A stretch of 64,000 bases of DNA from Siphonodentalium dalli (taxonomy: Eukaryota > Mollusca > Scaphopoda > Gadilida > Siphonodentaliidae), in NCBI GenBank assembly GCA_032622095.1, contig CP136061.1, forward strand, positions 81,876,324-81,940,323, read 5' to 3'. Shown piece by piece: positions 20,580 to 51,611 of this stretch; the first letter of the stretch is position 1, and each line of letters starts with the position of its first letter. Under the pieces are notes generated by a model. The model was not told where the DNA came from. It saw only the letters and a program-made list of their open reading frames with translations, and made no database searches. The position numbers were made by a program, and so were the translations under genes.

Positions 20580-21131
20580 TTGTTTATGTTCAGTATGACC
20601 TTGTATGTGACCAATCTGCATTGAAGAAACTCTATTTGCTTTCAGTTCGATCTTGAATATATACAAGCAGCATTGAGGAACTCTACCAAATCTCTGTATG
20701 TTTTTTAGTATGACATTCTATGTGACCAAGCTACAGAAACTCTACCAAATCTCTGTATGTTTTAGTATGATCTAGTTTCCGACAAAGCGCATTACGGAAC
20801 TCGACCAAATACCTGTATGTTTTTTCCAGTTTGATCTAGTTTGCGACCAAGCGCATTACGGAACTCGACCAAATCTCTGTATGCTTTTCAGTTCGATCTT
20901 GTATGTGACCCAGCTACTTCGCCGAATTCGACCAAATCTCTGTATGTTTTTAGTACTGCCTTGTATGTGACCAAGCTTCATTGAGGAACTCGACAAAATG
21001 TATCGCTTTTTTCAGTTTGACCTAGTTTGTGACCCAGCTGCATTGAGGAACTCCACAAAATCTCTGTATATTTTTCAGTTTGACCTAGTTTGTGACCAAG
21101 CTGGACAAAATCCATTATTTTTTTCTTTCAG
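20580..21131 (+). repeat. Tandem array of exon-2 acceptor plus exon-2 start (decoy exon copies)
   Basis: About nine degenerate units of 53-64 bp precede the real exon 2. Each carries a TTTT(T)CAG-like acceptor, then TTYGAYCTWGTNTGTGACCA and GCATTGMGGAACTCNACNAAATCTCTGTATG. The two nearest units (starting about 21014 and 21079) translate FDLVCDPAALRNSTKSLY and FDLVCDQAG, against FDLVCDQAALRSTAKSLY in the true exon. No decoy is followed by its own donor. Use of either nearest acceptor with read-through puts exon 2 out of frame. Confidence 0.85.
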
Positions 21132-21235
21132 TTTGATCTTGTTTGTGACCAAGCTGCATTGCGGAGCACGGCGAAGTCATTATATTTTGCTGGGAAGCTG
21201 ATCGGGACGCCTCTGAGTGGGACCCTGGCCGATAG
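21132..21235 (+). CDS. SLC22-like transporter, exon 2 (residues 130-164)
   Basis: Begins FDLVCDQAALRSTAKSLYFA after the acceptor TTTTTTCTTTCAG and ends GTLAD plus two bases of the Arg codon before donor GTAACA. It covers the end of the first extracellular loop and TM2 and contributes the left half of the MFS GxLaDRxGRR motif. The phase-2 end pairs exactly with the single A that opens exon 3. About nine degenerate copies of this exon's first 50 bases, each with an acceptor-like TTTTCAG, lie immediately upstream. This copy is taken as real because it alone continues through TM2 and has a donor. Confidence 0.9.
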
Positions 21236-22290
21236 GTAACATACAGTAATACAGTAATCGCATAAACCATTACAACATGGCCCCATAAGGTAAATTGAAC
21301 AGCAGTCTTTATTGTCCCTACGTAGACATTAGCTCTAGGTTCAGTTACACTTACTGCTGGTGTGTGTCGTCGGAGATGTGGCTATAGGGTCTACGTTGGT
21401 GGTAACACTGGTGTAAATATGGTTCGGAGCGACCTCTAGCGGAGGAAATTATAGTACAGAATAAAATAAATACTAGGACCCCATTGGTCAATAGCCTTGT
21501 GTGTATTTTGCAGAAAAATACATCACACCTCTTGCATATGATTTACTTAGGTAAAATAGCCATTGACATAGGTATAAACCCTATGAAGTTTGTATTTTGT
21601 GGTGTGATCTAAAATATGACATTTATTTTAGTGCGGTTCTAACACTAATTACGAAAACACAAGATTTAAAGGCGAATTCCCTTCTAGTCGGATATGATTT
21701 TAAAAAAAAAATTACCGCCAATGTCAATCTTTCAAATTAAAAACCAATCTGGTCCTGGGAATTATATTGAAAACATGCAGTATACACTAAAACGTTTGCA
21801 CATAGGACTGTGAAACACATTTACGCCAGTGTAACCTTGGTGTATGCATGCACTTGCAATTTCCAACCACTCCTGGAACCAGACCAAATTCCTTATTCGG
21901 AAAAGTCCAATTTCTAATGTGGCTGCTTTGCGAAATAGTCAATACATCCCCCGAAATTATATCTCCAGATCTCGAGATATTATGTCGAGATCCCCGTGAT
22001 AATATTTCGGGAAAAATGTAATTTTCCAATTGTTGGAGATGTCCAACCATACACCCCATTTTGAAAAGTTCCCGTATTATGGTCATTTCTGTCCAATAAA
22101 AAGACCGAACGTATATAAAAAGTATGCGATTCTCTGTCTTACACAATAAATTTCCCATAGCTTCATGTACTGGTAGGAAAATTAAATTACCAGAACAATT
22201 TCAATCTATGTTTGGTGTGAAATGTCCGACTGGCGTTATGTCAATCTTGAAATTCCAAACTGCTGATTTATTTTATCAAAGTTGTTGGTG
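21236..22290. other. Start of intron 2, nothing recognised
   Basis: No gene or clear repeat. A GATCTCGAGATATTATGTCGAGATC-type short inverted segment lies at about 21967-21992. Confidence 0.4.
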
Positions 22291-22919
22291 AGACACCTCA
22301 CAATCCACAGAACCAAGATTCTACGTCACGCGAGACACCCCACAAACCACATGACCAAGATCCTACGTCACTGAGACACCTAACAAACCACAGGACCAAG
22401 ATCCTACGTCACGTGAGACACCTCACAAATCACAGGACCAAGATCCTACGTCACGTGAGACACCTCACAAACCACATGACCAAGATCCTACGTCACGTGA
22501 GACACATCACAAACCACAGGACCAAGATCCTACGTCACGTGAGACACCTCACAAACCACAGGACCAAGATCCTACGTCACGTGAGACACCTCACAAACCA
22601 CAGGACCAAGATCCTACTTCACGTGAGATACCTCACAAACCACAGGACCAAGATCATACGTCACGTGAGACACCTCACAAACCACAGGACCAAGATCCTA
22701 CGTCACAGGAGACACATCACAAAACACAGGACCAAGATCCTACGTCACGTGAGATACCTCACAAACCACAGGATCAAGATCCTACTTCACGTGAGACACC
22801 TCACAAACCACAGGACCAAGATCCTACGTCACGTGAGACACCTCACAAACCACAGGACCAAGATCCTACTTCACGTGAGACACCTCACAAACCACAGGAC
22901 CAAGATCCTACGTCACAAA

Positions 22920-25550
22920 CAAGGAATATATACAACGGGAAGGTTCACTCCGCGCATTTGTGGTAATCACCGGAAGTTGTCATGACGCCATTCTGGTAGG
23001 ATACCCTGGTAGGAACGTACGTCATCGCATCGTTACTTCCTTGTTTACTTTTACTAATAAGTTAAAAGTGTGGGAGTTTGAAAATGATTTACAAATCAAA
23101 GTGGCATCCAGGATATTTGTGGGATCAACATATCGCTGAAGTAGAGGAACTAAAGTGGTAATCCATATCCATATATGATATATTCGAATGGATCGAATTG
23201 AAAATTCATTTAACTTGTATGTCTACCAGTACTAGGAAACAAACTTACTGGGTGGGATTTCTGTGTCAAATACGACTGTCTTTCATAATTTGACTAATGA
23301 CTATGTCCATAACATTACCTGAGTCATGTCTCTAATTAAAAAAAAATTGAGATCTATTATGGAAAAAAATTGAGATCTATTATGGGATCAAAGTTCACAA
23401 CCTTGGTCATTTAAATTAATTGCTTAGAATATAACCACAATTTAAACATGTTTTAAAAGCTCCACCAAGGGCACCATTCAGTAGGGCTTACATTCCAGAT
23501 GCCACTTTTATTATGAAACTGGCATACCAGTTGATATGGGAATAATTATGGAGTCTGAGTACAAGTTAATGCCATTTATATTGAGTCCTGCATACATGAT
23601 ATATTTCACTAATCTCGCATACACTATATGTATGTACCATCAATATATGATGAGTTTACATCAATTACAGGGGTTGGTGGGACACATATACATGCTACCA
23701 GTATACTGTATTACAAATAAATAGTATGTTACACTTTATACACTACATTTCATTATGTTTGCAGTGCCATTTTATCAATCTGAAATACTTGATATTTAAA
23801 AACATCCACCAAATATCAAATCTTTGGGCCATGATATCATAAACTTCCCTGGTCCTATACCTACCCTGATACCCACATACAAAAAACCCCTACCGGTAAG
23901 ACTTACCAGGTAGTAGCAAATATTTCATTTACATTTCATATCCATATTTTGTCCTTATAGTACATAAATTGTCTGTTGGATAGACTATGTATAGTGAATG
24001 GCGGCAGATGTAGGCCTATATTTTTAATTATTTGTGTGATATCTATAGATTTTCAATATCAAAATAACAGTTTAAATATTTAAACCTACCTGCAAGTATG
24101 AGTTAAGTAAAATCGCACATAATATATAGGCCTACCCGCCTACTCTTAAATATAGTCTATGGTATGGGGAAACAATAATTTTAAAGTTCTGTTATTAGCA
24201 TACAGCACTATATAATATTGTGTCATTTTCAGCAAATGGTGTGGTACCGGTACTTACAATGTGATAGACATGTGTCACGCAATCATGATTAATGTACCGT
24301 ATGGTGTCAATCATTATGAGGTGCCATGGAGATACAATCATCCTCTATGTTTTCCAAAAATAACCGATGACATTATGTTCTTATATTCATGGCTACACTA
24401 CATGCCTACTGCTATGTAATATATTGGCAAACATAACTTACAATACCCAGTATTTATTCAAGAATTTATAAATTATAGCATCTCTGGGTCATGTATATCA
24501 TTAATATTAAATATGATGAGTTTATTTGGGAAATTTTGATGTAGTTATAAAAATATATTGCGTTGATGTGTGTGAAAATATCAATCTTTGTTAAATATTA
24601 AAATAAAAAAGAAGCATATGTAGCCTAAATTTCCCAAATTATCATTCTCTGAGTTCTCATATACCATGCACGCAAGGACTAAGCAAGTCTCAACATGAGT
24701 AAAATACATTTATATATAGCCTTAAATGTTTGAACACTCACTAATTAATCTTTCTTCAGAACAAACAAAAAATCACATGTAGCCTATTTATAAATCTATA
24801 AACCTAGTACATAATTAAATATTTGATATTATCAGAATTCTTGTTTTAATGGGTAATGCTTGAAATGACTAAGTATTTGATTCCAAATATTAAATTATTA
24901 ATGTATCAATGACTAAGGGGGTAAGGGTGTGGCTAGTGCAACCCAATGAATGTACATTACCACATAGCAACTACTTGAACTAGCATTGATGTTATTGACT
25001 TGAGAAGCCTCATAATTGTGTAAAATCTCACAGGGCTCCACGGTCCACCCACACTTTGATTTTGACACTTTTGACTCTTCATAGCCGCCAGAGCCAACAA
25101 GCATGGAATTATTCTGTAATGTTTCCAAATGAATTTTATTTTAAGTTTATGTTTCAATATTTGGTACGCCGCATTTTAATTTAAAATTGGCATCATCACA
25201 GTTATGAATTGAATGATCTCAGCCAAAATTTCGACATTGAATAACAAACGAAAATTGGCAAGAAAGACAGCGTAATTTGGTTGAAATAAATACTCATTTG
25301 CTTTAAAATATATTTTTTTCATGTTGGTGGATTAAAGTATGATATATAGTCACAAATGTTGCTTTTTGTCTGATTGTTTATTCTTTTATAGGCCTACTAT
25401 TTCGATTTTGTTTACACACAAGTCGAATAGCGCTGCGGTAACCAATGACGCCATTCGCTCTTCTATCCTACCAGAATGGCGGATGCTGGCGACGTCATGC
25501 ATTACGTTGAGCCAATAGGAAGCGAACCTTCCCGTTGTATATATTCCCTG
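22920..25550. mobile_element. hAT-type DNA transposon, non-autonomous or decayed (2631 bp)
   Basis: The left end is CAAGGAATATATACAACGGG and the right end, inverted, is CAGGGAATATATACAACGGG; both continue AAGGTTC. A second shared block CGCCATTCTGGTAGGATA lies about 65-90 bp inside each end. Flanking it is an exact 8-bp direct repeat GTCACAAA (22912-22919 and 25551-25558), derived from the minisatellite and fitting the hAT target pattern nTnnnnAn. No recognisable hAT transposase or dimerisation domain is encoded. The interior holds a possible small two-exon frame. Confidence 0.85.
23084..24419 (+). CDS. Possible two-exon frame inside the hAT-type element (23084-23157 + 24233-24419)
   Basis: ATG at 23084 opens MIYKSKWHPGYLWDQHIAEV plus EELK, then a donor-like GTAATC at 23158. 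An acceptor CATTTTCAG at 24224-24232 leads, in matching phase, into a frame open to a TAA at 24417 and reading CKWCGTGTYNVIDMCHAIMI, then about 42 more residues rich in W, Y and H. The spliced product would be 86 residues. The CxxC followed by Cys-His is loosely zinc-finger-like, but I do not recognise the family. Both pieces are short and could be chance; the agreement of phase and good splice signals is the only support. Confidence 0.25.
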
Positions 25551-26237
25551 GTCACAAACCACAGGACCAAGATCCTACGTTACAAACCACAGGACCAAGA
25601 TCCTACGTCACGTGAGACACCTCACAAACCACAGGACCAAGATCCTACGTCACAAATTAAGTCTCTAACCCAAAGCGGTTTTTATTTTTAATTCGTTTAA
25701 ACGATATATAAACGTTTGCCTGATGGGATAAACTAGTACATAGGGTGTGGAAATTCACATTCAATGCACATTCAAAAATAATCATTGTTAAAAACTCATA
25801 TTTATTAATAAGAGTTTTCAACGATGACTATTTTTGAACGTGCAACTTAAATTTACAAGGGAAATAGGTGCCGATTTTAAACATGAAACACACCTCAGCC
25901 ATTTACTAGATGTTCGTAAAGTGCACATAATCCGTTTCACGCCTACGTACAATAACTAATGCAATGAATGTCAACTGCATCATGTCCATATGGCAGATAT
26001 TCGAATGTCTGAAGTGACGGTTCATGGCCCCGAACACTGTCGTCATGCCCATACGTGTCACTATTGCCAACGGAAGTCACAATACATCTTTCAGTAAACT
26101 GTTGTGTTTAGCGAGTAGGTTCGAGTAATATAGTTATGTCGTGGGGCTATCCACAACTTAATGACAAGTCAACACGAGATATATATAGATATATACACGG
26201 GCATGTATGTTTAATTGTTTATTTGCACGATAATATA

Positions 26238-26513
26238 TTAAAGGCACTATTTCTTTGGTTTCGGGGGGTAAAACAAATAGTTGATTCGAGTCGATGAACC
26301 CACCCATCAAAGCTCAGAGTGATCAGATATCGATTTTTGAAGTTTGTTAATTTCTCGAGATGTGACACAGCAACACGTGGTCAAACGGACAAATTGAGGA
26401 TGAAGATGGATAACTCTAAATTCAAGTGATTATTATTCGAATCAAATGTTTGTTACCCCCGAAGCCAAAGAAATAGTAATTTAGGAGCGTCTGATCGGAT
26501 TGAGTACTTTTAA
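26238..26513. mobile_element. TTAA-flanked MITE, copy D (276 bp, both ends from one side)
   Basis: TTAA on both sides. The left part is TTAAAGGCACTATTTCTTTG...GATTCGAGTCGATGAACCC, and the right part returns as GATTATTATTCGAATCAAATGTTTGTTACCCCCGAAGCC-type sequence ending GATTGAGTACTTTTAA. Both halves derive from the same terminal region, inverted, so this copy is an internally deleted and rearranged derivative. Confidence 0.75.
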
Positions 26514-27239: not shown

Positions 27240-27475
27240 CTTGAATTGACTATTTTTAAAGTCAAGGTCAAGTCGGGGTCATGATTTGACCCGTCTAAAA
27301 CACTCCCCGGAGAAAAGCATCCCTAGGTATCAAATTTCGTCGAAATCCGTACGTTTTACCCGATTTGACCGTGTATTGACCATTTTGAAGGTCAAGGTCA
27401 GGTCGGGGTCACGATTTGACCCGCCCAAACACTCCCCGGACAAAAATACTCCTAGGTATCAAATTTCGTCGAAAT
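27240..27475. repeat. ~125-bp tandem pair with GGTCAAGGTCA motif
   Basis: Two units of AGGTCAAGGTCARGTCGGGG...TCAYGATTTGACCCG...ACTCCCCGGA...TAGGTATCAAATTTCGTCGA. GGTCAAGGTCA phrases of this kind are, as I recall, common in repeats of molluscan genomes, which is only weak taxonomic support. Confidence 0.7.
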
Positions 27476-34370: not shown

Positions 34371-34378
34371 TAATGGCA
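34371..34378. repeat. 8-bp target-site duplication, left
   Basis: TAATGGCA, identical to 39568-39575 on the far side of the foldback element. Confidence 0.9.
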
Positions 34379-37300
34379 GGGACATGACAATCTGCGGGAT
34401 GGGATGGGATATGGGACAAAACGACAATCTGCGGGACAGAATTTCAAATTGCGTGGGACGGCCGATATCTCGAGGAATACAGGGCGTAGGGGGCTCATTT
34501 TGGTGTCTAACGAAAGGCCCACATTCGCCCTATCCACACATATTAACTCCGCCACTGACCGGACACCAGAAGTTGCATTATTTGATCGACAACTGACCTA
34601 ACATGGGGTGGAATTTGGGATAGCATGACAATCTGCGGGACGGGATTTTCAAATTGCGTGGGACGGCTGATATCTCGAGGAATACAGCGTGTAGAGGGCT
34701 CCTTTTGGTGTCTCACGAAAGGTCCACATTCGCCCTATCCACACATATTAACCCCGTCACTGACCGGACAACGGAAGTTACATTATTCGGTTGACAACTG
34801 ACCTAACATAAAATGCCACAAACACGAAAAACTGCGTTCGACATTAATGTTTAGAATTTAGATTTCTCGATGAATACGCTAGCAAACAACAAGTTTTGGG
34901 TATCAAATAACACAGTGGAATACTGTGCATTCGTTTTTGACTACAATATGGCTGTTTTAGTGCGAATATTGTAATGGCGAACACGCAAACACGCGCCGAT
35001 AAAACAGCTAAAAATAGACTCGATGTTACACAATTACAGGATCGATTTCAGCTGGTATATTCAATATAATGTGACGTATGGTATATCAAAATGTAGGATT
35101 AGACACAGGGAATGTTTTTTTTTAAATGGGTCCCACCAGGCGGTGAAATTGTTGCAGAAATTCGCTCCAAGATATTCTCACTTATTTTTATTTCAGTTGT
35201 GATTAAAACCCCAGATGCCGGAGCCCAGCGACTAAAAGCCAAGTTACAAAATAGATCAACTGGTTTGAACGAATGAATATGTCAATGGTAAGACTATTCA
35301 AAAGAATATTCAAATCAAATAGTGTTTATAGACTTAAAAACTTATGTGTCCACCATTCATATGCGGTGGAGGTTCTCATATTATCTGCCAGTCATACACG
35401 GGGGAGGTTCTCATATGAACATATTATCTGCCGGTCATACGCGGTGGAGGTTCATATTATCCGCCGGTCATACGCGAGGGAAGTTCTCATTTTATCCTCC
35501 GGTCATACGCGGGGGAGGTTCTGACATGAACATATTATCTGCCGGTCATATGCGGTGGAGGTTCATATTATCCACCGGTCATACGCGAGGGAGGTTCTCA
35601 TATTATCCTCTGGTCATACGTTGGGGAGGTCCTCATATGAACATATTATCCGCCGGTCATATCCTCCCTCGGGTGTGACCGGTGGATAATATGAGAACCT
35701 CCCTCGCATATGACCGGTGGATAATATGTTTATATGAGACCCTCCACCGCGTATGACCGGTGGATAATATGAACCTCCACCGCGTATGACCTGCAGATAA
35801 TATGTTCATATCAGAACCTCCCCCACCTATGACCGAAGGATAATATGAGAACTTCCCTCGCGTATGATCGGCGGATAATATGAACCTCCACCGCGTACGA
35901 CCGGCGGATAATATGTTCATATGAGAACCTCCACCACGTATGAACGGCGGATAATATGTTCATATGAGAACCTCCACTGCGTATGACCGGCGGATAATAT
36001 GTTCATATGAGAACCTCCCCTACGTATGACCGGTGGATAATATGAACCTCCACCGTGTATGACCGGCGGATAATATGTTCATATCAGAACCTCCCCCACA
36101 TATGACCGAAGGATAATATGAGAACTTCCCTCGCGTATGATCGGCGGATAATATGAACCTCCACCGCGTATGACCGGCGGATAATATGTTCATATGAGAA
36201 CCTCCCCAACGTATGACTGGAGGATAATATGAGAACCTCCCTCGCGTATGACCGGCGGATAATATGACCCTCCACCGCGTATGACCGGCGGATAATATGT
36301 TCATATGAGAACCTCCCCAACGTATGACCGGAGGATAATATAAGAACCTCCCTCGCGTATGACCGGCGGATAATATGAACCTCCACCGCGTATGACCGGC
36401 AGATAATATGTTCATATGAGAACCTCTCCAACTTATGACCGGAGGATAATATAAGAACCTCCTTCGCGTATGACCGGTGGATAATATGAGAACCTCCCTT
36501 GCATATGACCGGCGGATAATATGAACCTCCACCGCGTATGACCGGAGGATAATATGTTCATATCAGAACCTCACCCACATATGATCGGAGGATAATATGA
36601 GAACTTCCCTCGCGTATGACCGGAGGATAATATGAACCCCCACCGCATATGACCGGCGGATAATATGTTCATATGAGAACTTCCCTCGCGTATGATCGGC
36701 GGATAATATGAACCTCCACCGCGTATGACCGGCGGATAATATGTTCATATGAGAACCTCCCCAACGTATGACTGGAGGATAATATGAGAACCTCCCTCGC
36801 GTATGACCGGCGGATAATATGAACCTCCACCGCGTATGGCCGGCGGATAATATGTTCATATGAGAACCTCCCCAACGTATGACCGGAGGATAATATAAGA
36901 ACCTCCTTCGCGTATGACCGGTGGATAATATGAGAACCTCCCTCGCATATGACCGGCGGATAATATGAACCTCCACCGCGTATGACCGGAGGATAATATG
37001 TTCATATCAGAACCTCACCCACATATGATCGGAGGATAATATGAGAACTTCCCTCGCGTATGACCGGAGGATAATATGAACCTCCACCGCATATGACCGG
37101 CGGATAATATGTTCATATGAGAACTTCCACCGTGTATGACCGGTGGATAATATGAACCTCCACTGCGTATGACCGGCGAATAATATGTTCATATGAGAAC
37201 CTCCCCAATGTATGACCGGAGGATAATATGAGAACCTCCCTCGCGTATGACCGGCGGATAATATGAACCTCCACCGCGAATGACCGGCGGATAATATGTT

Positions 37301-39567
37301 CATATGAGAACCTCCCCAATGTATGACCGGGGGATAATATAAGAACCTCCCTCGCGTATGACCGGTGGATAATATGAGAACCTCCCTCGCATATGACCGG
37401 CGGATAATATGAACCTCCACCGCGTATGACCGGCGGATAATATATTCATATGAGAACCTCCCCAACGTATGACCGGAGGATAATATAAGAACCTCCCTCG
37501 CGTATGACCGGTGGATAATATGAGAACCTCCCTCGAGCATGACCGGCGGATAATATGAACCTCCACCGCGTATGACCGGCGGATAATATGTTCATATCAG
37601 AACCTCACCCACATATGATCGGAGGATAATATGAGAACTTCCCTCGCGTATGACCGGTGGATAATATGAACCTCCACCGCGTATGACCGGTGGATAATAT
37701 GTTCATATGAGAACCTCCACCGTGTATGACAAGTGGATAATATGAACCTCCACCCCGTATGACCGGCGAATAATATGTTCATATCAGAACCTCCCCCATG
37801 TATGACCGGAGGATAATATGAGAACCTCCCTCGCATATGACCGGCGGATAACATGAACCTCCACCGCGTATGACCGGCTAATAATATGTTCATATCAGAA
37901 CATCCCCCACGTATGACCGGAGGATAATATGAGAACCTCCCTCGCGTATGACCGGCGGATAATATGAACCTCCACCGCGTATGACCGGCAGATAATATGT
38001 TCATATGAGAACCTCCCCTATGTATGACCGGATGATAATATGAGAACCTCCCTCACGTATAACCGGTGGATCATATGAGAACCTCCCTCGCGTATGACCG
38101 ACAGTTAATATGTTCATATGAGAACCTCCACCGTGTATGACAAGTGGATAATATGAACCTCCACCCCGTATGACCGGCAGATAATATGTTCATATGAGAA
38201 CCTCCCCTATGTATGACCGGATGATAATATGAGAACCTCCCTCACGTATAACCGGTGGATAATATGAGAACCTCCCTCGCGTATGACCGACAGTTAATAT
38301 GTTCATATGAGAACCTCCCCATCGTATGACCGGAGGATAATATGAGAACCTCCCTCGCGTATGACCGGTGGATAATATGAACCTCCACCGCATATGACCG
38401 CCGGCAGATAATATGTTCATATCAGAACCTCCCCCGCGTATGACCGGAGGATAATAAGAAAACTTCCATCGCGTATGACCGGCGGATAATATGAACCTCC
38501 ACCGTGTATGACCGGCAGATAATATGTTCATATGAGAACCTCCCCCGCGTATTACTGGGAGATAATATGAGAACTTCACTGCATATATGAATGGTGGACA
38601 CATAAGTTTTTAAGTCTATAAACACTATTTGATTTGAATATTCTTTTGAATAGTTTTACCATTGACATATTCATTCGTTCAAACCAGTTGATCTATTTTG
38701 TAACTTGGCTTTTAGTCGCTGGGAACCGGCATCTGGGCTTTTAGTCACAACTGAAATAAAAATAAGTGCGAATATCTTGGAGCGAATTTCTGCAACAATT
38801 TCACCGCCTGGTGGACCCATTTGGAAAAAATACATTCCCTGTGCCTAATTCTACATTTTGATATACTATACGCCCCATTATATTGAATATACCGGCTGAA
38901 ATCGATCCTGTAATTGTAAACATCGAGTCTATTTTTATCTGTTTTATCGGAGCGTGTTTGCGTGTTCGCCATTACAATATTCGCACTAAAACAGCCATAT
39001 TGTAGCTAAAAACGAATGCACACTATTCCACTGCGTTATTTGATACCTAAAACTTGTTGTTTGCTAGTGTATTCATCGAGAAATCTAAATTCTAAACATT
39101 AATGTCGAACGCAGTTTTTCGTGTTTGTGGCATTTTATGTTAGGTCAGTTGTCGACCGGATAATGTAACTTCCGGTATCCGGTCAGTGGCGGGGTTAATA
39201 TGTGTGGATAGGGCGAATGTGGACCTTTCGTTAGACACCAAAAGTAGCCCTCTATGCGCTGTATTCCTCGAGCTATCGGCCGTCCCACGCAATTTGAAAA
39301 TCCTGTCCCGCAGATTGTCATGCTATCCGAAATTCCACCCCATGTTAGGTCAGTTGTCGATCAAATAATGCAACTTCTGGTGTTTGGTTAGTGACGGGGT
39401 TAATATGTGTGGATAGGGCGAACGTGGGCCTTTCGTTAGACACCAAAATGAGCCCCACACGCCCTGTATTCCTCGAGATATCCGCCGTCCCACGCAATTT
39501 GAAATTCTGTCCCGCAGATTGTCGTTTTGTCCCATATCCCATCCCATCCCGCAGATTGTCATGTCCC
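34379..39567. mobile_element. Foldback-type DNA element with long inverted arms and ~36-bp internal array (5189 bp)
   Basis: Both termini read GGGACATGACAATCTGCGGG inward. The unique arms (34379-35365 and 38580-39567) are inverted copies about 1 kb long, each with a ~210-bp internal direct duplication (CTGCGGGACAGAATTTCAAA...). The arms continue into a shared tandem repeat, GAACCTCCACCGCGTATGAC plus CGGCGGATAATATG, which runs about 330 bp from the left arm and about 2.9 kb from the right, switching orientation near 35672. An exact 8-bp duplication TAATGGCA flanks it. Long arms made partly of tandem repeats are the hallmark of Foldback-like elements. An 8-bp duplication fits hAT, P or Merlin superfamilies, so the source is undetermined. 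No transposase is encoded; all ORFs are array translations. Confidence 0.9.
35370..38590. repeat. Internal minisatellite of the foldback element, with higher-order structure
   Basis: Units of about 31-43 bp alternate between a short form (CTCCCTCGCGTATGACCGG) and a form followed by TTCATATGAGAA. A marker variant with CACCCACATATGATC recurs at about 36570, 37015 and 37605, so multi-unit blocks of about 440-590 bp have been copied. Orientation flips once at about 35672. Confidence 0.9.
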
Positions 39568-41043
39568 TAATGGCATCATAAAGTGGTTTATTTCAAACGT
39601 GAGATCGTGGTTAAACTTTTGTAGAAATACAATTATCCACAATGGCGGCTGCTAAGATAGAGTTGTCCTTCTTTGTACGTTTATGCTCTGAACGTTTTCG
39701 CGAGGATTTTCCCTAAAACTATCCGGCGGATGTGATAAGAAATTCGAAATAAAATGAATATTAATTGATAGGAACTTTTTTCTGACATGAGTGCTATTTT
39801 TTTATACCCCGGAATCAATATAAAGCTTTCTATGTGTCCTCGCGGTTAAAGTGATGTGAAACACTCCGATAGGGTGGTCAAATAGAAATGGAAAATATTC
39901 TTGCTCAGAGTAGTTATTTTTAGGAATGTTAATCCAAATTTACAACACACACACACCGTAATTCTGATATATTAATTAAATGCAATGACTCTCGATGGCG
40001 AAATCATTTGTGTTTGTTTATCGCCGATAGTTGCGTCCCGAATCCAGATGTAAATATTTACAATTGAGCTCAGTTCAGACGATGTTTTCTATGGAATGGT
40101 ATGGTCGATTTCTTTGAAATTTTCAGCGATCTTAGTATAATGCTACATTCCACAGGTAAGCATAGCGCCTGAGTACTACCTTATCACTTTCATACACCCG
40201 AACAAGTCCATAATATGTCTTTAATATATGTTATTTAAAACCCCGACATAAGTATAATAGGCACCGGGAACCTTTCGGGACAGTTTTAGGGCCTATTATT
40301 AGAGGTAGAACTCTATCTTGTTACAACCTCAATCAATGCCTAATTAAATATAACATTTTTTTTATTGAAGTGTTTTGTCAGTTACAATTAATTCTGGTTT
40401 GATCTAGACTACTTTCAAATGAATATGGACAGTTCAGTTTCTCAGAATGATGCAAAATGAATTATAACCTACAAAAGCCTCAAATAAATAAATACGACAT
40501 TTCTTCACATTCCGTGTAGGTGCGGGCAGCGGTAAGTCCTGCGTAGGGGACTGAACTATGCAAGGAGCTTGGAATATTATCTGTGTCGTTCTGAAGGAAT
40601 CAGGGAGCTAAATGTGTTCCAGAGTCGGGGAGCGAGTACACCGTGGAAGGTGAAGGTAACTGAAGAATGACCTTCACCTGATACATGTGACACGTTATTA
40701 AAGGATGACATCGTGTTTATTTTATTTGTACATCATATCTAAATAATTTAAACTGTTGAATTAATGGGGGAATGAATTTTTATGAGTGGGAAATTGATTT
40801 AACTAGTTGCTGTAGTTCTGGGTTTTTCCAGACCAAATTTGGCTGTGGGATAGCCCTGCCGTACACTTGGGGATTTATTTAAAAAGTAAACACATGAACT
40901 ATGATTTTTCTTGCATTTTCGTGATCAACTGGTGTCAATCTAGCTGGGTAAGTACCACTGGTATAGCCTGTAGGCTTCCATTCAGTGAATTCGGTCGAAA
41001 TGTTAACACTGTCGCCTATGGGAAAGGAAACCACGGAACCGGA
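39568..41043. repeat. End of intron 2, with a dispersed repeat shared with the window's right end
   Basis: The block 40360-40570 (GAAGTGTTTTGTCAGTTACA...CAGTTTCTCAGAATG...CATTCCGTGTAGG) recurs at about 62580-63120 and, inverted, at 63885-64000. No gene was seen. Confidence 0.6.
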
Positions 41044-41210: not shown

Positions 41211-41229
41211 TTTGTCTTTTATATATTAT

Positions 41230-42296
41230 ACAGATTCGGCCGGAGGAATATATTCGCCAACTGTGACGATATTCGTATGGTGTTTGCATGGTTTATCGTT
41301 CATATTTTTCATAGCTTCGGCCGGAGGAATATCACAGAGGAGCTAGGACACACAGTAGCTGGGAGTACCAATTTTTCACGCTCGTGGTAAACACCACAGT
41401 TCCACTCGTGGTTAACCTAACATCCACTCGTGGTTAATCTAACATCCACTCGTGGTGAAAATATGGTACTCTCGGCTACAATGGGAGTATTCTATATATC
41501 TTTTATATTTTACACGGAGTCGGCCGGACAAATATCTTCGTCATGAATGTCGTCCTACATGCGGTGTTTGAATGGTTTATGTTTTATATTTTAGACAGAT
41601 TCGGCCGGAGGAATATTTTCGCCATGTGTGTCATTCTACAGTCGGTATTTGAATGCATATTTTTATATATATATATATATATTTTACACAGAATCGGCCG
41701 GAGGAATATCATCGCCATGTGTGTCGTCCCACATAAGGTATTTGAATGCATATTTTTATATATATATATATATTTTACACAGATTCGGCCGGAGGAATAT
41801 CATCGCCATGTGTGTCGTCCCACAGAAGGTATTTGAATGCATATTTTTTTATATATATATATTTTACACAGATTCGGCCGGAGGAATATCATCGCCATGT
41901 GTGTCGTCCCACAGAAGGTATTTGAATGCATATTTATATATATATATATATTTTACACAGATTCGGCCGGAGGAATATCATCGCCATGTGTGTCGTCCCA
42001 CGGAAGGTATTTTAATTCATATATTTATTTTTTTTACACAGATTCGACCGTCGATATAACTTCGCCATGTGTGTCGTCCCACATGCGGTGTTTGAATGGT
42101 TTAAGTTTTATATTTTACACATATTCGGCCGGAGGAATATTTTCGCCATCTGTATCATCCTATACAGACGGTATATGAATGCATATTTGTTTTTATATAT
42201 TTTACACAGATTCGGCCGGAGGAATATTTTCGCCATCTGTATCATCCTATACAGACGGTATTTGAATGCTATATTTTTTTTATATAATTTACACAG
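41230..42296 (+). repeat. Tandem array of exon-3 acceptor plus exon-3 start (decoy exon copies)
   Basis: About eleven units, mostly 85-88 bp in the later part, each with TATATTTTACACAG, then ATTCGGCCGGAGGAATAT and a coding-like stretch (FGRRNIIAMCVVPQKVFE against FGRRNIFAICVVLQTVFG in the real exon). The unit then dissolves into TTTGAATGCATATTTTTATA, which supplies the pyrimidine/AT tract of the next acceptor. One near copy at 42123 has lost the AG (CACAT), and one at 42042 is diverged (TTCGACCGTCGATA). The nearest intact decoy acceptor ends at 42209. Confidence 0.9.
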
Positions 42297-42445
42297 ATTC
42301 GGCCGGAGGAATATATTCGCCATCTGTGTCGTTCTACAGACGGTGTTTGGGTTGATCGCCGCGGCTTCCACTAACTCCTATCTCTTCTATGCATTCTACA
42401 CTCTGTTCGGAGCTGCAGAACCATACAGCGTCGTTTTCACATTTG
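42297..42445 (+). CDS. SLC22-like transporter, exon 3 (residues 165-213 plus split codons)
   Basis: Starts with the base completing R164 and then FGRRNIFAICVVLQTVFGLI, the right half of the MFS loop motif followed by TM3, and ends EPYSVVFTF plus one base of the next codon before donor GTTAGT. Both edges lie in tandem arrays: acceptor-side copies of period about 87 bp at 41230-42296 and donor-side copies of period 73 bp up to about 43345. This copy is chosen because it is the only one where the acceptor-side and donor-side parts are joined into one open exon whose phases match exons 2 and 4. Confidence 0.9.
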
Positions 42446-43345
42446 GTTAGTATTTAATGTACGGATGGCTACGCTCTGTTCGGAGCTGCAGAACCATACA
42501 GCGTCGTTTTCACATTTGGTTAGTATTTAATGTACGGATGGATACACTCTGTTCGGAGCTGCAGAACCATACAGCGTCGTTTTCACATTTGGTTAGTATT
42601 TAATGTACGGATGGCTACACTCTGTTCGGAGCTGCAGAACCATACAGCGTCGTTTTCACATTTGGTTAGTATCTAATGTACGGATGGATACACTCTGTTC
42701 GGAGCTGCAGAACCATACAGCGTCGTTTTCACATTTGGTTAGTATTTAATGTACGGATGGATACACTCTGTTCGGAGCTGCAGAACCATACAGCGTCGTT
42801 TTCATATTTGGTTAGTATTTAATGTACGGATGGCTACACTCTGTTCGGAGCTGCAGAACCATACGGCGTCGCTTTCACATTTGATTAGTATTTAATGTAC
42901 GGATGGCTACACTCTGTTCGGAGCTGCAGAACCATACAGCGTCGCTTTCACATTAGGTTAGTATTTAATGTACGGATGGCTACACTCTGTTCGGAGCTGC
43001 AGAACCATACAGCGTCGCTTTCACATTAGGTTAGTATTTAATGTACGGATGGCTACACTCTGTTCGGAGCTGCAGAACAACACAGCGTCGCTTTCACATT
43101 AGGTTAGTATTTAATGTACGGATGGATACACTCTGTTCGGAGCTGCAGAACCACACAGCGTCGCTTTCACATTAGGTTAGTATTTAATGTACGGATGGGC
43201 TACACTCTGTTCGGAGCTGCATAACCATACATCGTCGCTTTCACATTAGGTTAGTATTTAATGTACGGATGGGCTACACTCTGTTCGGAGCTGCAGAACC
43301 ATACAGCGTCGCTTTCACATTATGTTAGTATTAAAGGTACGGATG
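42396..43345 (+). repeat. Tandem array of exon-3 end plus donor, 73-bp units
   Basis: Thirteen units of CTACACTCTGTTCGGAGCTG plus CAGAACCATACAGCGTCG...TTGGTTAGTATTTAATGTACGG, the first being the true exon 3 end. Each unit codes YTLFGAAEPYSV.FT.G and retains the GTTAGT donor. Later copies change TTTCACATTTG to TTTCACATTAG. Read-through of the first donor meets GGT TAG at once. Confidence 0.95.
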
Positions 43346-43549
43346 GCCTTCGCGATGGGTATCTATCTCTATATACTGGTTGACCCCCGTTTGGGTATTA
43401 CCACTTGCGTTGGTGCAAGTGACTTGCGTCAGTGCAAGTGAGTAGGAAGTTGAGTGGATAGTAGTGATCACATTGCCAAGTTAAAATAATATGTACATAT
43501 CAAACCATGTAAAAAAACAAAGGTTGCTTTTGGTTTATGTTTGAAGCTG

Positions 43550-44550: not shown

Positions 44551-44583
44551 CTCACTCTCACAAGAGATAAATTTGTCTTGTAG

Positions 44584-44752
44584 CCACAGAACTGGTTGGA
44601 CGACAGTACCGCATGGCTACCGGGTTCTGTCTGCACATGGCGTTCAGCTTCGGGTGCATCGTGCTCGGTTTACTGGCCTACCTCATTCGAGACTGGCGCT
44701 ATCTCATGTACAGCATTGTGCTTCCAGGCATCCTGCTCTCATTCTCGTACTG
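44584..44752 (+). CDS. SLC22-like transporter, exon 4 (residues 214-270)
   Basis: Opens CC to complete Ala-214, then TELVGRQYRMATGFCLHMAF, covering the TM4-TM5 loop, TM5, the RDWRY turn and TM6 (SIVLPGILLSFSYW). The acceptor is AAATTTGTCTTGTAG and the donor is GTGAGTAAT, splitting the Trp-270 codon. ELVGRQYR corresponds to the conserved E-(F/W)-(V/T)-x-x-x-x-R element of SLC22 proteins. The 3' half and donor are repeated four more times downstream to about 45240. Confidence 0.92.
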
Positions 44753-45245
44753 GTGAGTAATATGGTACCCGGGATTTTGTTGGGGACGGGGTGTTACTGG
44801 TCCACCTCATCTGAGAGTGGCGCTATTTCATGTACAGCATTGTGCTTCCAGGCACCCTGCTCTAATTCTCATACTGGTGAGTAATATGGTTCCAGGGATT
44901 TTGTTGGGGAGGGGGTGTTACTGGCGCTATCTCATGTACAGTATTGTGCTTCCAGGCATCCTGCTCTCATTCTCATACTGGTGCGTAATATGGTACCCGG
45001 GGTTTTGTGGGGGGTGTTACTAGCCCACCTCATCTGAGAGTGGCGCTACATGATGTACAGCATTGTGCTTCCAGGTATCCTGCTCTCATTCTCATACTGG
45101 TGCGTAATATGGTACCCGGGAGTTTTGTTGGGGGGGGGGTGTTACTAGCACACCTCATATGAGTGTGGCGATATCTCATGTACATAATTGTGCTTCCAGG
45201 CATCCTGCTCTCTTTCTCATACTGGTGAGTAATATGGTACCCGGA
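44697..45245 (+). repeat. Tandem array of exon-4 end plus donor, ~105-128-bp units
   Basis: Five units, the first being the true exon: TGGCGCTATCTCATGTACAG plus CATTGTGCTTCCAGGCATCC, TCATACTGG, then donor GTGAGTAAT or GTGCGTAAT and GGTACCCGGG, a G-rich tract, and CACCTCATCTGAGAG. Every unit retains a GT donor. The coding-like part carries SIVLPGILLSFSYW with few changes. Confidence 0.92.
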
Positions 45246-45334
45246 ATATTTGTGTTTGGTGGCGGTCACGTACAGAAGAGAAAAATATAGGAACTTTTTC
45301 AGAATTACCCTATGATTTCTTCGTTATAAAAATA

Positions 45335-45838
45335 GATAACGACGATGTGTTGATTTGTGTAAGAAAATAAATTATTAGCCGACAAAACATCACTGAGAGC
45401 TAGATTTGTTAGTTGAATGTTGATCGATTTTTAACTATATGATAAGCTGGATGGTGGTGAATTTCGAAGAATCTATCCGACATGTTTCTTGAGCCGTTTC
45501 AATCTGGGTTTTTATGCTCTCTGGATACAATATTCGGTGGCCAAATTGTATTAAAATTAATGCAGTCGATAGAAATGGAATGGAGGACGCTTGTGATATT
45601 GATTGAAAGAGGAATCCTTCGCCGACACGTCCGTGCATGGCGACATCGATACCATTGCTCGGATAAAAGGGCTAAATTTTCCCGATTTCCGAGCGATGGT
45701 AAAACGGGGGATTTCCAATGTACCCCTTGTCCTAAATATGATACTATTAACGTAAAGCAGGCACGTATATAGTTTAGGCGTATAGGGCAGTGCAAAGGGG
45801 GTGGGCAGCGGAGGGAGTTACATGCCCTTGTGGTAATA
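45335..45838. mobile_element. Partial second copy of the 31.7-kb inverted-repeat element
   Basis: 45335-45400 matches 32140-32205 inverted (GATGTGTTGATTTGTGTAAG, AAATTATTAGCCGACAA). 45605-45838 matches the arm sequence, ending GGGCAGCGGAGGGAGTTACA plus TGCCCTTGTGG. Only one arm is present. Confidence 0.65.
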
Positions 45839-46437
45839 TGATATCCGGGATTTTATTTACTCTGTCGTCTGTCCCGTAGTCTAGTGGTGAAGATAGAGTT
45901 AGGCCGTGTACAGGAACAAATGAAGAGTCCAGAAGATTTGATAACTTTTATATTTTATAAGTCTCTGTCGATAAGCACAATAGGTGGATAACCAGAGGTG
46001 TTGGTGGTAGCAAGGTTCCAGAACATGTGAGGTCCCCGTTCCCGAGAACGGGTAGTTATTTTCTAGTGTCGGTGGTATCATGTGTCCATATAAGGTCTGA
46101 TATACCATGATACCGTTGTTTATGACGTGTATCATACTATTGTTTACTATAGAATGATACTGGTTTGATTCTCCCCCACTTATACAATGGTAGCTAGCTA
46201 CCAGTCATAACCAATTAAGAATATGATCTTGTTAATTATGCTTGTGTGTTCTTGTACTATATCATTTATATCTCCCATGTATTGTGCTTATCTATACAAT
46301 TAACCCTAGCAGTTACAATCATTGGGGAAAAGAAGTTTATCTTAGATCCGGCAACACATATAACAATAAATATACTATCTTATGTCCTATCGGATACGTC
46401 ACACATGAACAAATCTGAGCCTGTCTGTTATTTTCAG
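45839..46437. other. End of intron 4, nothing firm
   Basis: CCCGTAGTCTAGTGGTGAAG at about 45871 resembles a tRNA A-box but no B-box or cloverleaf follows. No gene was seen. Confidence 0.4.
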
Positions 46438-46680
46438 GATTCTTGACGAACCCATCCGATGGTTGTTGAGTCGGAACAGGGACGAGGAAGCAAATAAGGT
46501 TTTACAAAAGATGTCCCGCATTAACAAGCGAGCTCTCCCAGATGACGTTATATGCCAACTACAAGACGAAATAACCAAAGAAAAAGAAAAAGAAGCGAAG
46601 ATAGACGAAAAGCGGACAATTGTCGATTTATTCAGAAACTGGGTCGTCGGCTGCCTTACAGTGAAAATGTGGTATATATG
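46438..46680 (+). CDS. SLC22-like transporter, exon 5 (central cytoplasmic loop)
   Basis: Codes residues 271-350. ILDEPIRWLLSRNRDEEANK matches the family WLxESPRWLxxRGRxxEA block after TM6, with the usual Ser-Pro replaced by Pro-Ile. A highly charged stretch with KEKEKEAKIDEKR follows, and then IVDLFRNW and the start of TM7. The acceptor is TTATTTTCAG and the donor GTGAGTGT, phase 2, splitting Trp-351. Neither edge of this exon lies in a tandem array, unlike its neighbours. Confidence 0.93.
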
Positions 46681-47064
46681 GTGAGTGTCTCTTAAAGAGA
46701 TTCGTTGCATTTCATTTTCCCTTTTCTGTTATAGATCTTTGTGTTATTTTTATTTCTCATTTTTTTGTGAGTGTCAAAAATCATATTATTGATTGTTTAT
46801 TGGTTATTTGTTAGGGACGAATGAAGGTTTGTTTGTTTATATTTCTATGTAGTTTACGAAATAGCATGGTCGATGTTGTTTAATATTTTGAGAGTATTAT
46901 TCAATTATTCAAATAGATGTAAAATACACGTCTCGTCCAATACAACTTTTTACCACCACCACCTGGACTATAGTGTAAGAAAAACACATACTCTACACAA
47001 CATTGTATATTAACTTTATAGTATTTTCGTATTCGTATGTCTTATTTGACGCGCATCGGCAATA

Positions 47065-48725
47065 GCAACGCGCTATATTACAAAGGTGGTCCGGTCCGGT
47101 CCCCATCACTAAGCAACGCGCAATATTACAAAGGTGGTCCGGTCCGCATCACTAAGCAACGCGCTATATTACAATGTGGTCCGGTCCGGTCCGCATCACT
47201 AAGCAACGCGCTATATTACAAGGTGGTCCGGTCCGGTCCGCACCACTAAGCAACGCGCTATATTACAAGGTGGTCCGGTCCGGTCCGCATCACTAAGCAA
47301 CGCGCTATATTACAAAGGTGGTCCGGTCCGGTCCGCATCACTAAGCAACGCGCTATATTACAAAGGTGGTCCGGTCCGGTCCGCATCACTAAGCAACGCG
47401 CTATATTACAAGGTGGTCCGGTCCGGTCCGCATCACTAAGCAACGCGCTATATTACAAGGTGGTCCGGTCCGCATCACTAAGCAACGCGCTATATTACAA
47501 AGGTGGTCCGGTCCGGTCCGCATCACTAAGCAACGCGCTATATTACAAGGTGATCCGGTCCGGTCCGCATCACTAAGCAACGCGCTATATTACAAGGTGG
47601 TCCGGTCCGCATCACTAAGCAACGCGCTATATTACAAGGTGGTCCGGTCCGGTCCGCATCACTAAGCAACGCGCTATAATACAAAGGTGGTCCGGTCCGG
47701 TCCGCATCACTAAGCAACGCGCTATATTACAAAGGTGGTCCGGTCCGGTCCGCATCACTAAGCAACGACGCGCTATATTACAAAGGTGGTCCGGTCCGGT
47801 CCGCATCACTAAGCAACGCGCTATATTACAAAGGTGGTCCGGTCCGGTCCGCATCACTAAGCAACGCGCTATATTACAAAGGTGGTCCGGTCCGGTCCGC
47901 ATCACTAAGCAACGCGCTATATTACAAGGTGGTCCGGTCCGGTCCGCATCACTAAGCAACGCGCTATATTACAAGGTGGTCCGGTCCGGTCCGCATCACT
48001 AAGCAACGCGCTATATTACAAGGTGGTCCGGTCCGATCCGCATCACTAAGCAACGCGCTATATTACAAAGGTGGTCCGGTCCGGTCCGCATCACTAAGCA
48101 ACGCGCTATATTACAAGGTGATCCGGTCCGGTCCGCATCACTAAGCAACGCGCTATATTACAAGGTGGTCCGGTCCGCATCACTAAGCAACGTGCTATAT
48201 TACAAGGTGGTCCGGTCCGGTCCGCATCACTAAGCAACGCGCTATATTACAAAGGTGGTCCGGTCCGGTCCGCATCACTAAGCAACGCGCTATATTACAA
48301 AGGTGGTCCGGTCCGGTCCGCATCACTAAGCAATGCGCTATATTACAAAGGTGGTCCGGTCCGGTCCGCATCACTAAGCAACGCGCTATATTACAAAGGT
48401 GGTCCGGTCCGGTCCGCATCACTAAGCAACGCGCTATATTACAAAGGTGGTCCGGTCCGGTCCGCATCACTAAGCAACGCGCTATATTACAAGGTGGTCC
48501 GGTCCGGTCCGCATCACTAAGCAACGCGCTATATTACAAGGTGGTCCGGTCCGGTCCGCATCACTAAGCAACGCGCTATATTACAAAGGTGGTCCGGTCC
48601 GCATCACTAAGCAACGCGCAATATTACAAAGGTGGTCCGGTCCGGTCCGCATCACTAAGCAACGCGCTATATTACAAAGGTGGTCCGGTCCGGTCCGCAT
48701 CACTAAGCAACGCGCTATATTACAA
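47065..48725. repeat. 48-bp minisatellite in intron 5, ~35 units
   Basis: Unit GTCCGGTCCGGTCCGCATCA plus CTAAGCAACGCGCTATATTACAAAGGTG. Lengths of 48, 47 and 43 reflect AAAG/AAG variants and loss of one GTCCG. A marker TGATCC at about 47550 recurs at about 48119, with matching neighbours, indicating a ~568-bp duplicated block of 12 units. Minus-strand ORFs are repeat translations. Confidence 0.95.
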
Positions 48726-48994
48726 AGATAATAACATTTATTATATGCTTGCCTATAAAATAACTGAAAATTAACGGAAGTAGATCGTCGAATATTTCAC
48801 TGTAGCTTGACGAATGACGTCATGATTTTGTCATTGAAAGCGGTTTGCTACCTATCAACTAATCTGAGCCAACCAGGTTCATGTTGCTTTCTGAGTGCTG
48901 CTCAATGTGTTGTACTATTAAAATTGAAAATACCGCATAATTTAGCAACTGTGGGCATTAATAAGCCACATATAATAAAAAGAACACCTCAAGT

Positions 48995-49310
48995 TTTTTA
49001 TTGAATATCTGAAACATCTCATGAGTGTCTGGGAAGAAATATAAACATCTCATGGGTGTCTGGGAAGAAATATAAACATCTCATGAGTGTCTGGGAAGAA
49101 ATATAAACATCTCATGAGTGTCTGGGAAGAAATATAAACATCTCATGGGTGTCTGGGAAGAAATATAAACATCTCATGAGTGTCTGGGAAGAAATATAAA
49201 CATCTCATGAGTGTCTGGGAAGAAATATCGAATTTTTATTCATGGCGCTCGTGAAAATTTTATATTTCTTTCCAGACACTCATGATATATATATTTCGAT
49301 GTTCAAACAA
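48995..49310. repeat. Hairpin element with amplified 31-bp unit (intron 5)
   Basis: Seven units of AAACATCTCATGAGTGTCTG plus GGAAGAAATAT, followed by the inverted partner TTTCTTTCCAGACACTCATGA. The arrangement matches the single-unit hairpin at 3527-3640, with the stem's left side amplified. Confidence 0.85.
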
Positions 49311-49356
49311 AACATGTAGGTATTCTCTGTACAACACTACATGTATTATTTTGCAG

Positions 49357-49568
49357 GTTTGTAATCGGAATGGTGTACTTTGGGATGTCTCTTAATACTG
49401 GTAACCTGGGCGGCAGTATGTACGTTAACATAGCGCTGATGGGGCTCTTCGAGATTCCCGGCTATGCGACATGCCTCTACTTCATCAATAGGGTGGGGCG
49501 AAGGCGGTGTTTAGCGACGTCACTCACAATGGCGGGCGTGTTCTGTTGTGCCTCTGGTCTTGCCACCG
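49357..49568 (+). CDS. SLC22-like transporter, exon 6 (TM7-TM9)
   Basis: Codes residues 352-421: FVIGMVYFGMSLNTGNLGGS (TM7), MYVNIALMGLFEIPGYATCL (TM8), the NRVGRRR cytoplasmic turn that is the second copy of the MFS GRR motif, and TM9 with a cysteine pair. The acceptor is ATTATTTTGCAG and the donor GTAAGTTCC, ending phase 1. YFG.SLN and E.P are strongly conserved in SLC22 family members. An unrelated 31-bp array (49016-49230) ends about 125 bp upstream. Confidence 0.93.
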
Positions 49569-50833
49569 GTAAGTTCCAAACTTACAAAGGAAGATGATGA
49601 ACAGTTTCAGACTTCAGCGCGCATATGATTTTCTTATATCGTGTTTGGTATCTAGACAACAACAATGATTAACCCTTTCACGATGGGAGTTACAATATAC
49701 CGTTCCAAATTATCAAGGGGGTCGTCTGTCTGGGATTTGTTCTGCTCCGCACCTCATTTAAAAGCATATAATAGCCAGTAATATCAATATACCTTGGTAT
49801 TTTAGTAGATATTTGTATTATCTCATCCGTGACTACATGGTATTCTATATGAACATGTACCCTGTCGTCACTCATCATATACTTCTAATGTCCACTCAAA
49901 TATGCAGGTAATTCAGGGAAAATAAAAGCAAAAGACAGACAGAAAAAAGATAATACAGAATGATTTATATTCATTGGTGGGAAATGTTCAGTTAAAAAAA
50001 AAAAAAAAAAGATATATGGTCGCTTGTTGAATCTATTATCTGAACAATTCCTATGAGAACTACTCGTCAATGAGTATTTGTATAGAAATGGTTAACACAT
50101 GCGATGCAGACTGGATACAGTGAGTGATAATGTCGTTTTATTGGATTATAGCATTAGAGCATTGTATGATTTTGAATATTATAGGTTTCATATCGAAGTT
50201 GCATGGACACTTTGTAGAAAATTACACATACCAAACCATAGAACATGCTTATGGAATTGGTCACTGCAGTTGTGACATTATCGGCGGTCAATATGCTGAC
50301 ATTACGGACTGACCTCCAATATTCAGTTTTACCAGCTTTTACCTTTGAAACTAAGATATTTCTGGCCAGATAACAATTGTTTCACCTTGATCCATCAGCC
50401 TCCATCTGTTGTTAGTTGCGGATGCCGCCCCTCCTAATTACTTAGTTTAACATCGTCACTAGTTGTGTTAGAACATGTAAACACTCTTGTATTAATGTAT
50501 AGAATTAGGAAATAGCGCAAAATGAGCGAAAACTTAGTGAAAAATTTGCGAAAATTTACTTCGGTCTGCAATATTTGCTACGAAAGCTTTCCAAAGGTAA
50601 GTTTCCTGATATTCGCATAGAACTATATATATATATATATATTAGTTATCAAATACTAATAATCAAATCAGTATTGGGTCCAAGATATCTTTTAATATGG
50701 AGTTGCTAATATAAAACCACCCAGATGGGCTTTTATACTATTTTGTTTTCAAAATCGCCCATCTTCGCTTTTATAATGTCGCGACATGATATGCTTTCAC
50801 ATAGTAGACATCTTGATGTTGTTAGTATATATG

Positions 50834-50930
50834 CCGGCGTTCCTTACATTTTTCATAAATTGAATGGTTGTATATTGAATTTGTTAGCATACCGGCGTTC
50901 CTTCCCTTTTCAGAAATTGAATGGTTGTCT
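50834..50930 (+). repeat. Duplicated exon-7 acceptor region
   Basis: CCGGCGTTCCTT, then a pyrimidine tract, TTTCAT/TTTCAG and AAATTGAATGGTTGT, occurs twice about 58 bp apart. Only the second has an AG and forms the exon. Confidence 0.8.
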
Positions 50931-51022
50931 ATTGCCTTCTCAATGATTGGTAAATTCTTCTCCTGTGGCGTCTTCGGGTCCATATTCCTGTACACCGCCG
51001 AAATCTTCCCGACAGAAATCAG
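50914..51022 (+). CDS. SLC22-like transporter, exon 7 (TM10 and start of TM11)
   Basis: Starts AA to complete Glu-422, then IEWLSIAFSMIGKFFSCGVF (TM10) and the conserved YTAEIFPTEIR block preceding TM11, where related transporters have Y.AE.(F/Y)PT..R. The acceptor is CCTTCCCTTTTCAG and the donor GTAATTAA, splitting Arg-458. The acceptor and the first about 16 coding bases duplicate a segment about 66 bp upstream (50834-50879), whose acceptor-like position reads TTTCAT and so should be dead. Confidence 0.92.
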
Positions 51023-51374
51023 GTAATTAACACTTTCTATACTAAATGGATTCTTCCATTTAGTTATACAAAAACACATTGGTGTGGTCTACTATTCATT
51101 TGGAGGGGTGTTCAGGTAATAAAAGCAGACGACAGGCAGAAAACTACACCAGATAATACAAGTGCAGAATGATTCATATTGATTGGTGGAAATATTCAGA
51201 TAATAATCAACTCTGGTCTTTTGTTGAACTTATTATCTTAACATTTCTTAGGGAACTACTATATATAGATATAATTGTATATATATATATATATATATAT
51301 AGCTATATATATATATATATATATATACCCTGTCTTACGAGATTGAGAAGGAAAAAAAAGTTATTGAAATTTGG

Positions 51375-51611
51375 AAGATGATTATTCATAATGCATTTGT
51401 CACCATCTAAATTACCCACAATGCATTTCCATAATTTGAATTATCTACAGTTCATTTCCACCATATATAAAATTACTCAAGATTAATCTGTTACCAAAAT
51501 TGCCCACAATGCATTATCTGCCATCTAAGTTACTACTGTAATGCATTTCCAATTTCTCAATTACCGATAATGCGGTTTCTACCACCTAAAATTACCCACA
51601 ATGCGTTTCAG
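51375..51611 (+). repeat. Degenerate array ending in the exon-8 acceptor; (AT)n tract upstream
   Basis: About six diverged ~33-40-bp units of CCATCTAAATTACCCACAAT plus GCATTTCC. The last reads ATTACCCACAATGCGTTTCAG and provides the acceptor. A (TA)n tract covers about 51275-51327. Confidence 0.75.

Follow-up and report, generated by a model that had tools for sequence, protein, structure and literature searches.

The window, by which we mean the whole 64,000-nucleotide stretch of DNA that was analysed, holds an SLC22-like gene that we rebuilt as eight exons on the + strand between positions 2968 and 51830. AG and GT stand at all the junctions placed, and the normal frame is open over 530 codons. 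Exon 1 (2968-3354) runs from the ATG to its donor and lies far upstream of 20580-51611, the interval described by a first-pass annotation of this DNA. It is followed by exon 2 (21132-21235), exon 3 (42297-42445), exon 4 (44584-44752), exon 5 (46438-46680), exon 6 (49357-49568), exon 7 (50914-51022) and exon 8 (51612-51830). Exon 8 is the last exon identified, and a final exon was not located. The encoded core matches the Sugar_tr and MFS_1 families, and the product matches solved SLC22 structures along the MFS core, with OCTN2 as the best match (E=3e-71). By its match over the MFS core, the gene is a predicted SLC22 transporter.

We compared the window with itself at the gene's 16 exon edges, using 90-base probes made of 30 intron and 60 exon bases. 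Clear local copies were found at four edges: the exon 2 acceptor, the exon 3 acceptor, the exon 3 donor and the exon 4 donor. Counting the live exon edge, there are 10 units (several partial), 11, 13 and 5 units at these edges, respectively. Units were compared in register with the real edge, over 12 to 35 intron bases and 50 to 85 coding bases. All the arrays are on the + strand. The exon 2 acceptor array (20583-21103) has nine units with a period of about 62 bp, several of them partial. They copy the acceptor and up to 54 coding bases, the matched parts are 78 to 94% identical to the exon, and AG is retained in 9 of 9. The first 54 or so bases of exon 2 itself are the last unit of this upstream array. 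Exon 3 carries arrays at both ends. The ten units on its acceptor side (41217-42264), spaced mostly 76 to 93 bp apart, copy the acceptor and about 52 coding bases; AG is retained in eight of them and lost in two, and one extra short fragment lies at 41302-41332. On the donor side, 12 further units of 73 to 74 bp (42469-43346) copy the donor and the final 50 exon 3 bases. They are 92.5 to 98.7% identical to the exon edge, and 11 of the 12 retain GT. The donor end of exon 4 also lies inside an array, whose four further units (44794-45253), 104 to 125 bp apart, copy the end of the exon and the donor and all retain GT. The first-pass annotation had described real arrays of 4 to 12 copies at several edges of one gene, and self-comparison bears this out, with 9, 10, 12 and 4 further copies counted at four clear arrays.

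Single copies were found at two more acceptors. An old exon 7 acceptor copy of 47 bp (50831-50877, +), 58 bp upstream, is 87% identical to the edge, and its AG has become AT. The exon 8 acceptor copy (51409-51457, +) is weak, being 78% identical over 50 bp and near the detection limit. A 20-bp repeat at 2905-2963 adjoins the start codon, stops before the ATG and copies no coding base. The exon 7 and exon 8 acceptors and the start codon had all been noted as adjoining repeats; the two acceptors have one copy each, and the start codon only has a repeat as its neighbor. The local search with the 90-base probes was negative at the other 10 of the 16 edges. These include the edges of exons 1 and 6 and both edges of exon 5, the exon that had been singled out as free of copies. 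At exon 6 a 31-bp array stops 128 bp upstream, and the edge is excluded from it. Within 49012-49290 the array is followed, by eye, by a single partial copy of its unit in inverted orientation.

A DNA search of the genome with the exon 2 unit, in which common words were skipped and which leaves the rarity of the unit unproven, gave this locus alone. This result indicates exon 2 itself, and not a dispersed repeat, as the source of the array. A paralogue or a dispersed repeat was considered as the source and rejected, the DNA search having matched only the gene's own locus. Among the best candidates listed, protein matches outside the window are 23 to 45% identical. The copies had been thought special in that they extend outward from the exon and never include a whole exon. 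We infer that this pattern is geometric, because the unit adjoining the single-copy core is the one taken for the exon, and most units do not reach the length of an exon.

Other elements are present in the window. A large inverted repeat at 34378-39568, within the intron that separates exons 2 and 3, has arms of 650 nt and 333 nt that are 94 to 95% complementary and enclose a 111-bp satellite-like array. It resembles a mobile element whose ends are long and inverted. A 42-bp minisatellite unit is shared by 22288-22916 and 25554-25650, which flank a stretch of about 2.6 kb, as though the array had been split by an inserted element. By eye, the two ends of this stretch resemble short inverted repeats; no inverted arms of at least 40 nt were found in a search. 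An open frame of 345 codons at 59737-60774 has a translation that, by eye, resembles the terminal part of a reverse transcriptase from a non-LTR retrotransposon.

Exon edges are not preferred by repeats within this gene. TRF arrays cover about 24% of the window (24.6%) and hold 3 of the 16 edges, while sets of edges shifted circularly have 3.9 in arrays on average (P=0.70 to 0.71); in this count the TRF array of exon 2 leaves out the exon 2 edge itself. A second test asks whether a nearby copy spans a given point, with 90-mers placed at random or on a grid. It was positive for 26.3% of 1500 random non-exon points and for 27.6% of 2302 intronic grid points of the gene, versus 6 of 16 edges (P=0.26 against the grid). 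Over both point sets (26 to 28% of points), P for edges against non-exon points ranged from 0.18 to 0.26. Points within 1 kb of the gene's exons had a copy rate of 38%. The first-pass annotation had named a shuffled-position control beforehand as the check on its proposal, and by that control arrays occur at edges no more often than expected.

We then sampled exon edges across the genome, which comprises 2.23 Gb in 9 contigs. The mir-2 family is not known outside protostomes. When 60 of 609,197 candidates were scored for it, one match exceeded the cut-off and another fell short, and the genome is therefore probably that of a protostome. The mollusc haemocyanin beta-sandwich family was not found in the genome, and the controls gave no match either. 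The sample consisted of 120 exon-bearing stretches (SLC22-like, tRNA-synthetase, dynein, myosin and ABC) and 20 fixed-grid stretches. We took 40 of 82 SLC22-like matches, 20 of 31 for PF00133, 40 of 96 for PF12774, 11 of 85 for PF00063 and 9 of 48 for PF00664. The exons were hand-picked, mostly from the top of the match lists; the window, some near-duplicates and intronless-looking matches were left out, and housekeeping exons make up a large share. A simple splice score served to place the edges. All 240 entered the count, although only 100 acceptors and 83 donors, of 120 each, passed a quality mark; by eye, the acceptor at the stretch L017 seems to be in the wrong place.

Of the 240 sampled edges, 8 are spanned by a local copy (4 of 120 acceptors and 4 of 120 donors), as are none of the 120 exon middles. 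A few stretches overlap, so that the points are not fully independent. In the intron, at distances of 200, 300 and 400 bp from the edge, 19, 24 and 24 of 240 points were positive (67/720). This is a 2.8-fold deficit at edges (Fisher P=0.002 against all displaced points, P=0.005 against a 24/240 set alone and P=0.046 against the 19/240 set alone). Array coverage was 11.4% in the grid stretches, about half of it contributed by L122 and L123 (2 of the 20), and 0.6% in coding matches. It was 2 to 4% within 50 bp of the matches and 6 to 8% at 400 to 600 bp. Having fewer copies at edges than in introns fits duplications that fall anywhere, with those near exons often purged. Exon edges are thus normally protected, yet edge-spanning arrays occur in other genes.

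Four of the eight positive sampled edges are strong. Two belong to SLC22 paralogues, with 10 units at the exon 4 donor of L017 and 4 units at a donor of L005. The other two are acceptors, of a tRNA synthetase (L044, 6 units) and a dynein (L076, 2 units). Two further dynein acceptors carry more diverged units, 2 at L083 and 3 at L094, and the donors at L040 and L115 have one short or old copy each; the case at L115 may instead be an exon that was duplicated long ago. The exon in L017 ends at query residue 271, as does exon 4 in the window, and the intron after exon 4 is therefore old. At this same edge the unit length is about 63 bp in L017 versus 104 to 125 bp in the window, so that the two arrays look independent. 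By eye, the dynein introns at L076, L083 and L094 share a palindromic element whose sequence is near TACAGTAATGCCCT or a close variant, which is probably a foldback MITE.

Compared with the sample rate of 8/240, the gene has more edges with copies (P=8e-6 for six edges and P=0.0016 for the four clear ones). However, its introns also carry copies roughly three times as often as the sampled introns do (27.6% versus 67/720). When the expected rate is taken as the local intronic rate multiplied by the sample's edge-to-intron ratio, P is 0.066 for four, 0.016 for five and 0.003 for six of the 16 edges. These outlier P values are optimistic, because the gene was picked after the fact as striking. 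We regard the gene as a mild outlier, given its own dense surroundings and the edge protection in the sample. Protection at its edges seems weaker than usual.

We suggest, with a probability of roughly 0.8, that the arrays are chance minisatellites that straddle splice junctions and are tolerated since the copy nearest the exon core would still splice. The gene sits in a minisatellite-rich stretch of a minisatellite-rich genome. In this scenario, new tandem duplications of about 50 to 125 bp would arise throughout and would expand by slippage or unequal exchange, and each array would stem locally from the exon it adjoins. Where a duplication fell over a junction, the unit beside the single-copy exon core would go on giving the normal exon, and the allele would be tolerated. 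Copies would accumulate on the intron side and then drift, presumably neutrally. The excess of edge copies in this gene over the prediction given above counts against this explanation, as do the copy rate of 38% within 1 kb of its exons and the retention of AG or GT in every copy at exon 2 (9/9) and exon 4 (4/4). The patterns of divergence at exons 2 and 4 also count against it and bring in the first alternative.

That alternative is that the arrays were refreshed repeatedly from the live exon end, by re-duplication or conversion, and so record successive states of the exon. Of the changes that separate exon 2 from the consensus of its own array, 8 are synonymous and 3 non-synonymous (synonymous-site share 0.23, P=0.0006), and its copies among themselves have a pN/pS of about 0.31. 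Variable columns among the exon 4 donor copies fall at third codon positions in 10 of 16 cases (P=0.016). Neither the exon 4 bias nor the exon 2 pN/pS is expected from plain drift of copies. The other arrays argue against repeated refreshing. At the exon 3 acceptor only 8 of 27 variable columns are at third positions and pN/pS is 0.85, and at the exon 3 donor the count is 1 of 9. The exon 2 copies alone give 12 of 26 (P=0.12), and the share pooled over the four arrays, 31 of 78, is not significant (P=0.14). The synonymous to non-synonymous counts of exon against consensus at exon 3, 3:2 for the acceptor and 0:2 for the donor, are too few to judge. Moreover, a single old array beside a constrained exon explains the exon 2 consensus equally well, and we consider repeated refreshing unlikely. 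The simplest reading is that exon 2 has been under constraint since the array was founded, and that the array resembles a fossil of an older exon. Constraint since the birth of the array would mean that the gene stayed functional.

We also weighed the proposal that the copied splice sites are decoys kept by selection, either to tune splicing, as the first-pass annotation suggested, or to route some transcripts into nonsense-mediated decay. Retention of AG or GT in 9/9, 8/10, 11/12 and 4/4 copies at the four arrays speaks for it. So does the conservation of the dinucleotide relative to the mean of the other intron columns at exon 2 (1.0 versus 0.90) and exon 4 (1.0 versus 0.95). However, neither exon 3 array has a dinucleotide excess (0.91 versus 0.97 at the acceptor), and three exon 3 copies have lost the dinucleotide altogether. 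Excess conservation of copied splice dinucleotides across the four arrays therefore gave no consistent signal. Use of the distal sites is predicted to give an early stop for 10/10 exon 3 donors tested (of 12 units), 4/4 exon 4 donors and 8/8 exon 2 acceptors tested (of 9), as decoys for decay might. Two of eight distal exon 3 acceptors, in contrast, would leave the frame open. The predicted early stops would fit harm or decay more than useful isoforms. Selection for decoys is, in our view, very unlikely.

In a process directed at exon edges, replication slippage or repair would be primed where exon and intron meet, for instance through co-transcriptional R-loops or template switching with RNA, and edges would be amplified in preference to other sites. 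It would account for the four clear edges and the two weaker ones of this gene and for the four strong and four older or short cases among 240 sampled edges. We find it highly doubtful, because the gene has no excess of copies at edges over introns and the genome sample of 120 exons has a 2.8-fold edge deficit. The units also contain unspliced intron sequence, which argues against a spliced RNA template. Edge-targeted amplification was accordingly rejected: the TRF shifts, the copy-spanning points and the genome exon sample are all against it. An assembly artefact, with repeats expanded or mis-joined, is most improbable, as had been supposed from the start: the 92.5 to 98.7% identity of the exon 3 donor units is in a range that allows a wrong copy number, but the exon 2, exon 3 acceptor and exon 4 units differ individually, none of the 140 sampled stretches contains an N, and like structures occur at other loci.

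About 3% of exon edges have copies in our small sample, and if this rate is representative, very many genes are affected. Each array is a natural test of spliceosome choice among near-identical consecutive sites, and the arrays also test how strictly exon ends are kept free of repeats by purifying selection. They may also provide raw material from which introns slide, exons lengthen or introns are gained, as proposed for lancelet globins in the excerpted text of PMC3087553. We tentatively raise a broader view, which we hold at somewhat less than even odds: that such structures are general in at least one large, probably protostome genome, that the arrays are datable fossils of exon ends, and that the spliceosome reliably picks the core-proximal one of up to 13 near-identical sites.

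The amplification of exon edges had been taken for a phenomenon without description, and in this respect there is prior art. Excerpts of two papers (PMC3087553, PMC3902484) describe the same structure as 'mirages' in the lancelet genes Adh3, the globins BflGb6 and BflGb9, and TnC, and similarly in PGBD5. They cite Canestro et al. 2002, Nucleic Acids Res 30:2871, as the founding paper. In these excerpts both boundary types can be affected, copies often keep AG or GT, and copy number differs between haplotypes in one lancelet globin gene. RT-PCR and Adh3 data from amphioxus suggest that splicing is undisturbed by mirages (PMC3087553, excerpt). As in the excerpted accounts, our arrays consist of minisatellite-like tandem units over 5' or 3' exon-intron boundaries; unit lengths fall within the range of 10 to about 160 bp, the units are partly diverged, and many, not all, keep AG or GT. 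Tandem units span the boundary at all four clear edges of the window. Both acceptors and donors are involved, two clear ones of each in this gene and more at L005, L017, L044 and L076, and the dinucleotide is lost in 2/10 exon 3 acceptor and 1/12 exon 3 donor copies. Judged by sequence structure, the arrays in the window are mirages in the lancelet sense; the name was first given in cephalochordates, but a cephalochordate host is no part of the structural definition. The observation is thus true, its cause is ordinary, and it has been described before.

Among the matches listed, and as far as the excerpts go, the literature on exon-boundary minisatellites as such comprised only the two lancelet papers and one on human segmental-duplication paralogues, which have tandem repeats at exon-intron boundaries (PMC2812944). 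The excerpts of PMC4039745 (intronic minisatellites of C. elegans) and PMC6823432 (the clubroot genome) describe no such structures. Our arrays resemble those of the human paralogues as minisatellites over exon boundaries able to alter gene structure. According to the excerpt, however, the human repeats lengthen exons or may create novel introns, whereas here the normal frame is kept and introns are extended. Intron gain by tandem genomic duplication (PMC4974935, excerpt) likewise involves tandem duplication inside a gene; here existing introns were extended, and no new intron was seen in the gene. Unlike the lancelet cases, the arrays described here affect four to six edges of one gene, reach 13 units and lie in a genome that is probably not a lancelet's. 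What is new is a different, probably protostome genome, a case with several affected edges in one gene, and a rough rate with a control.
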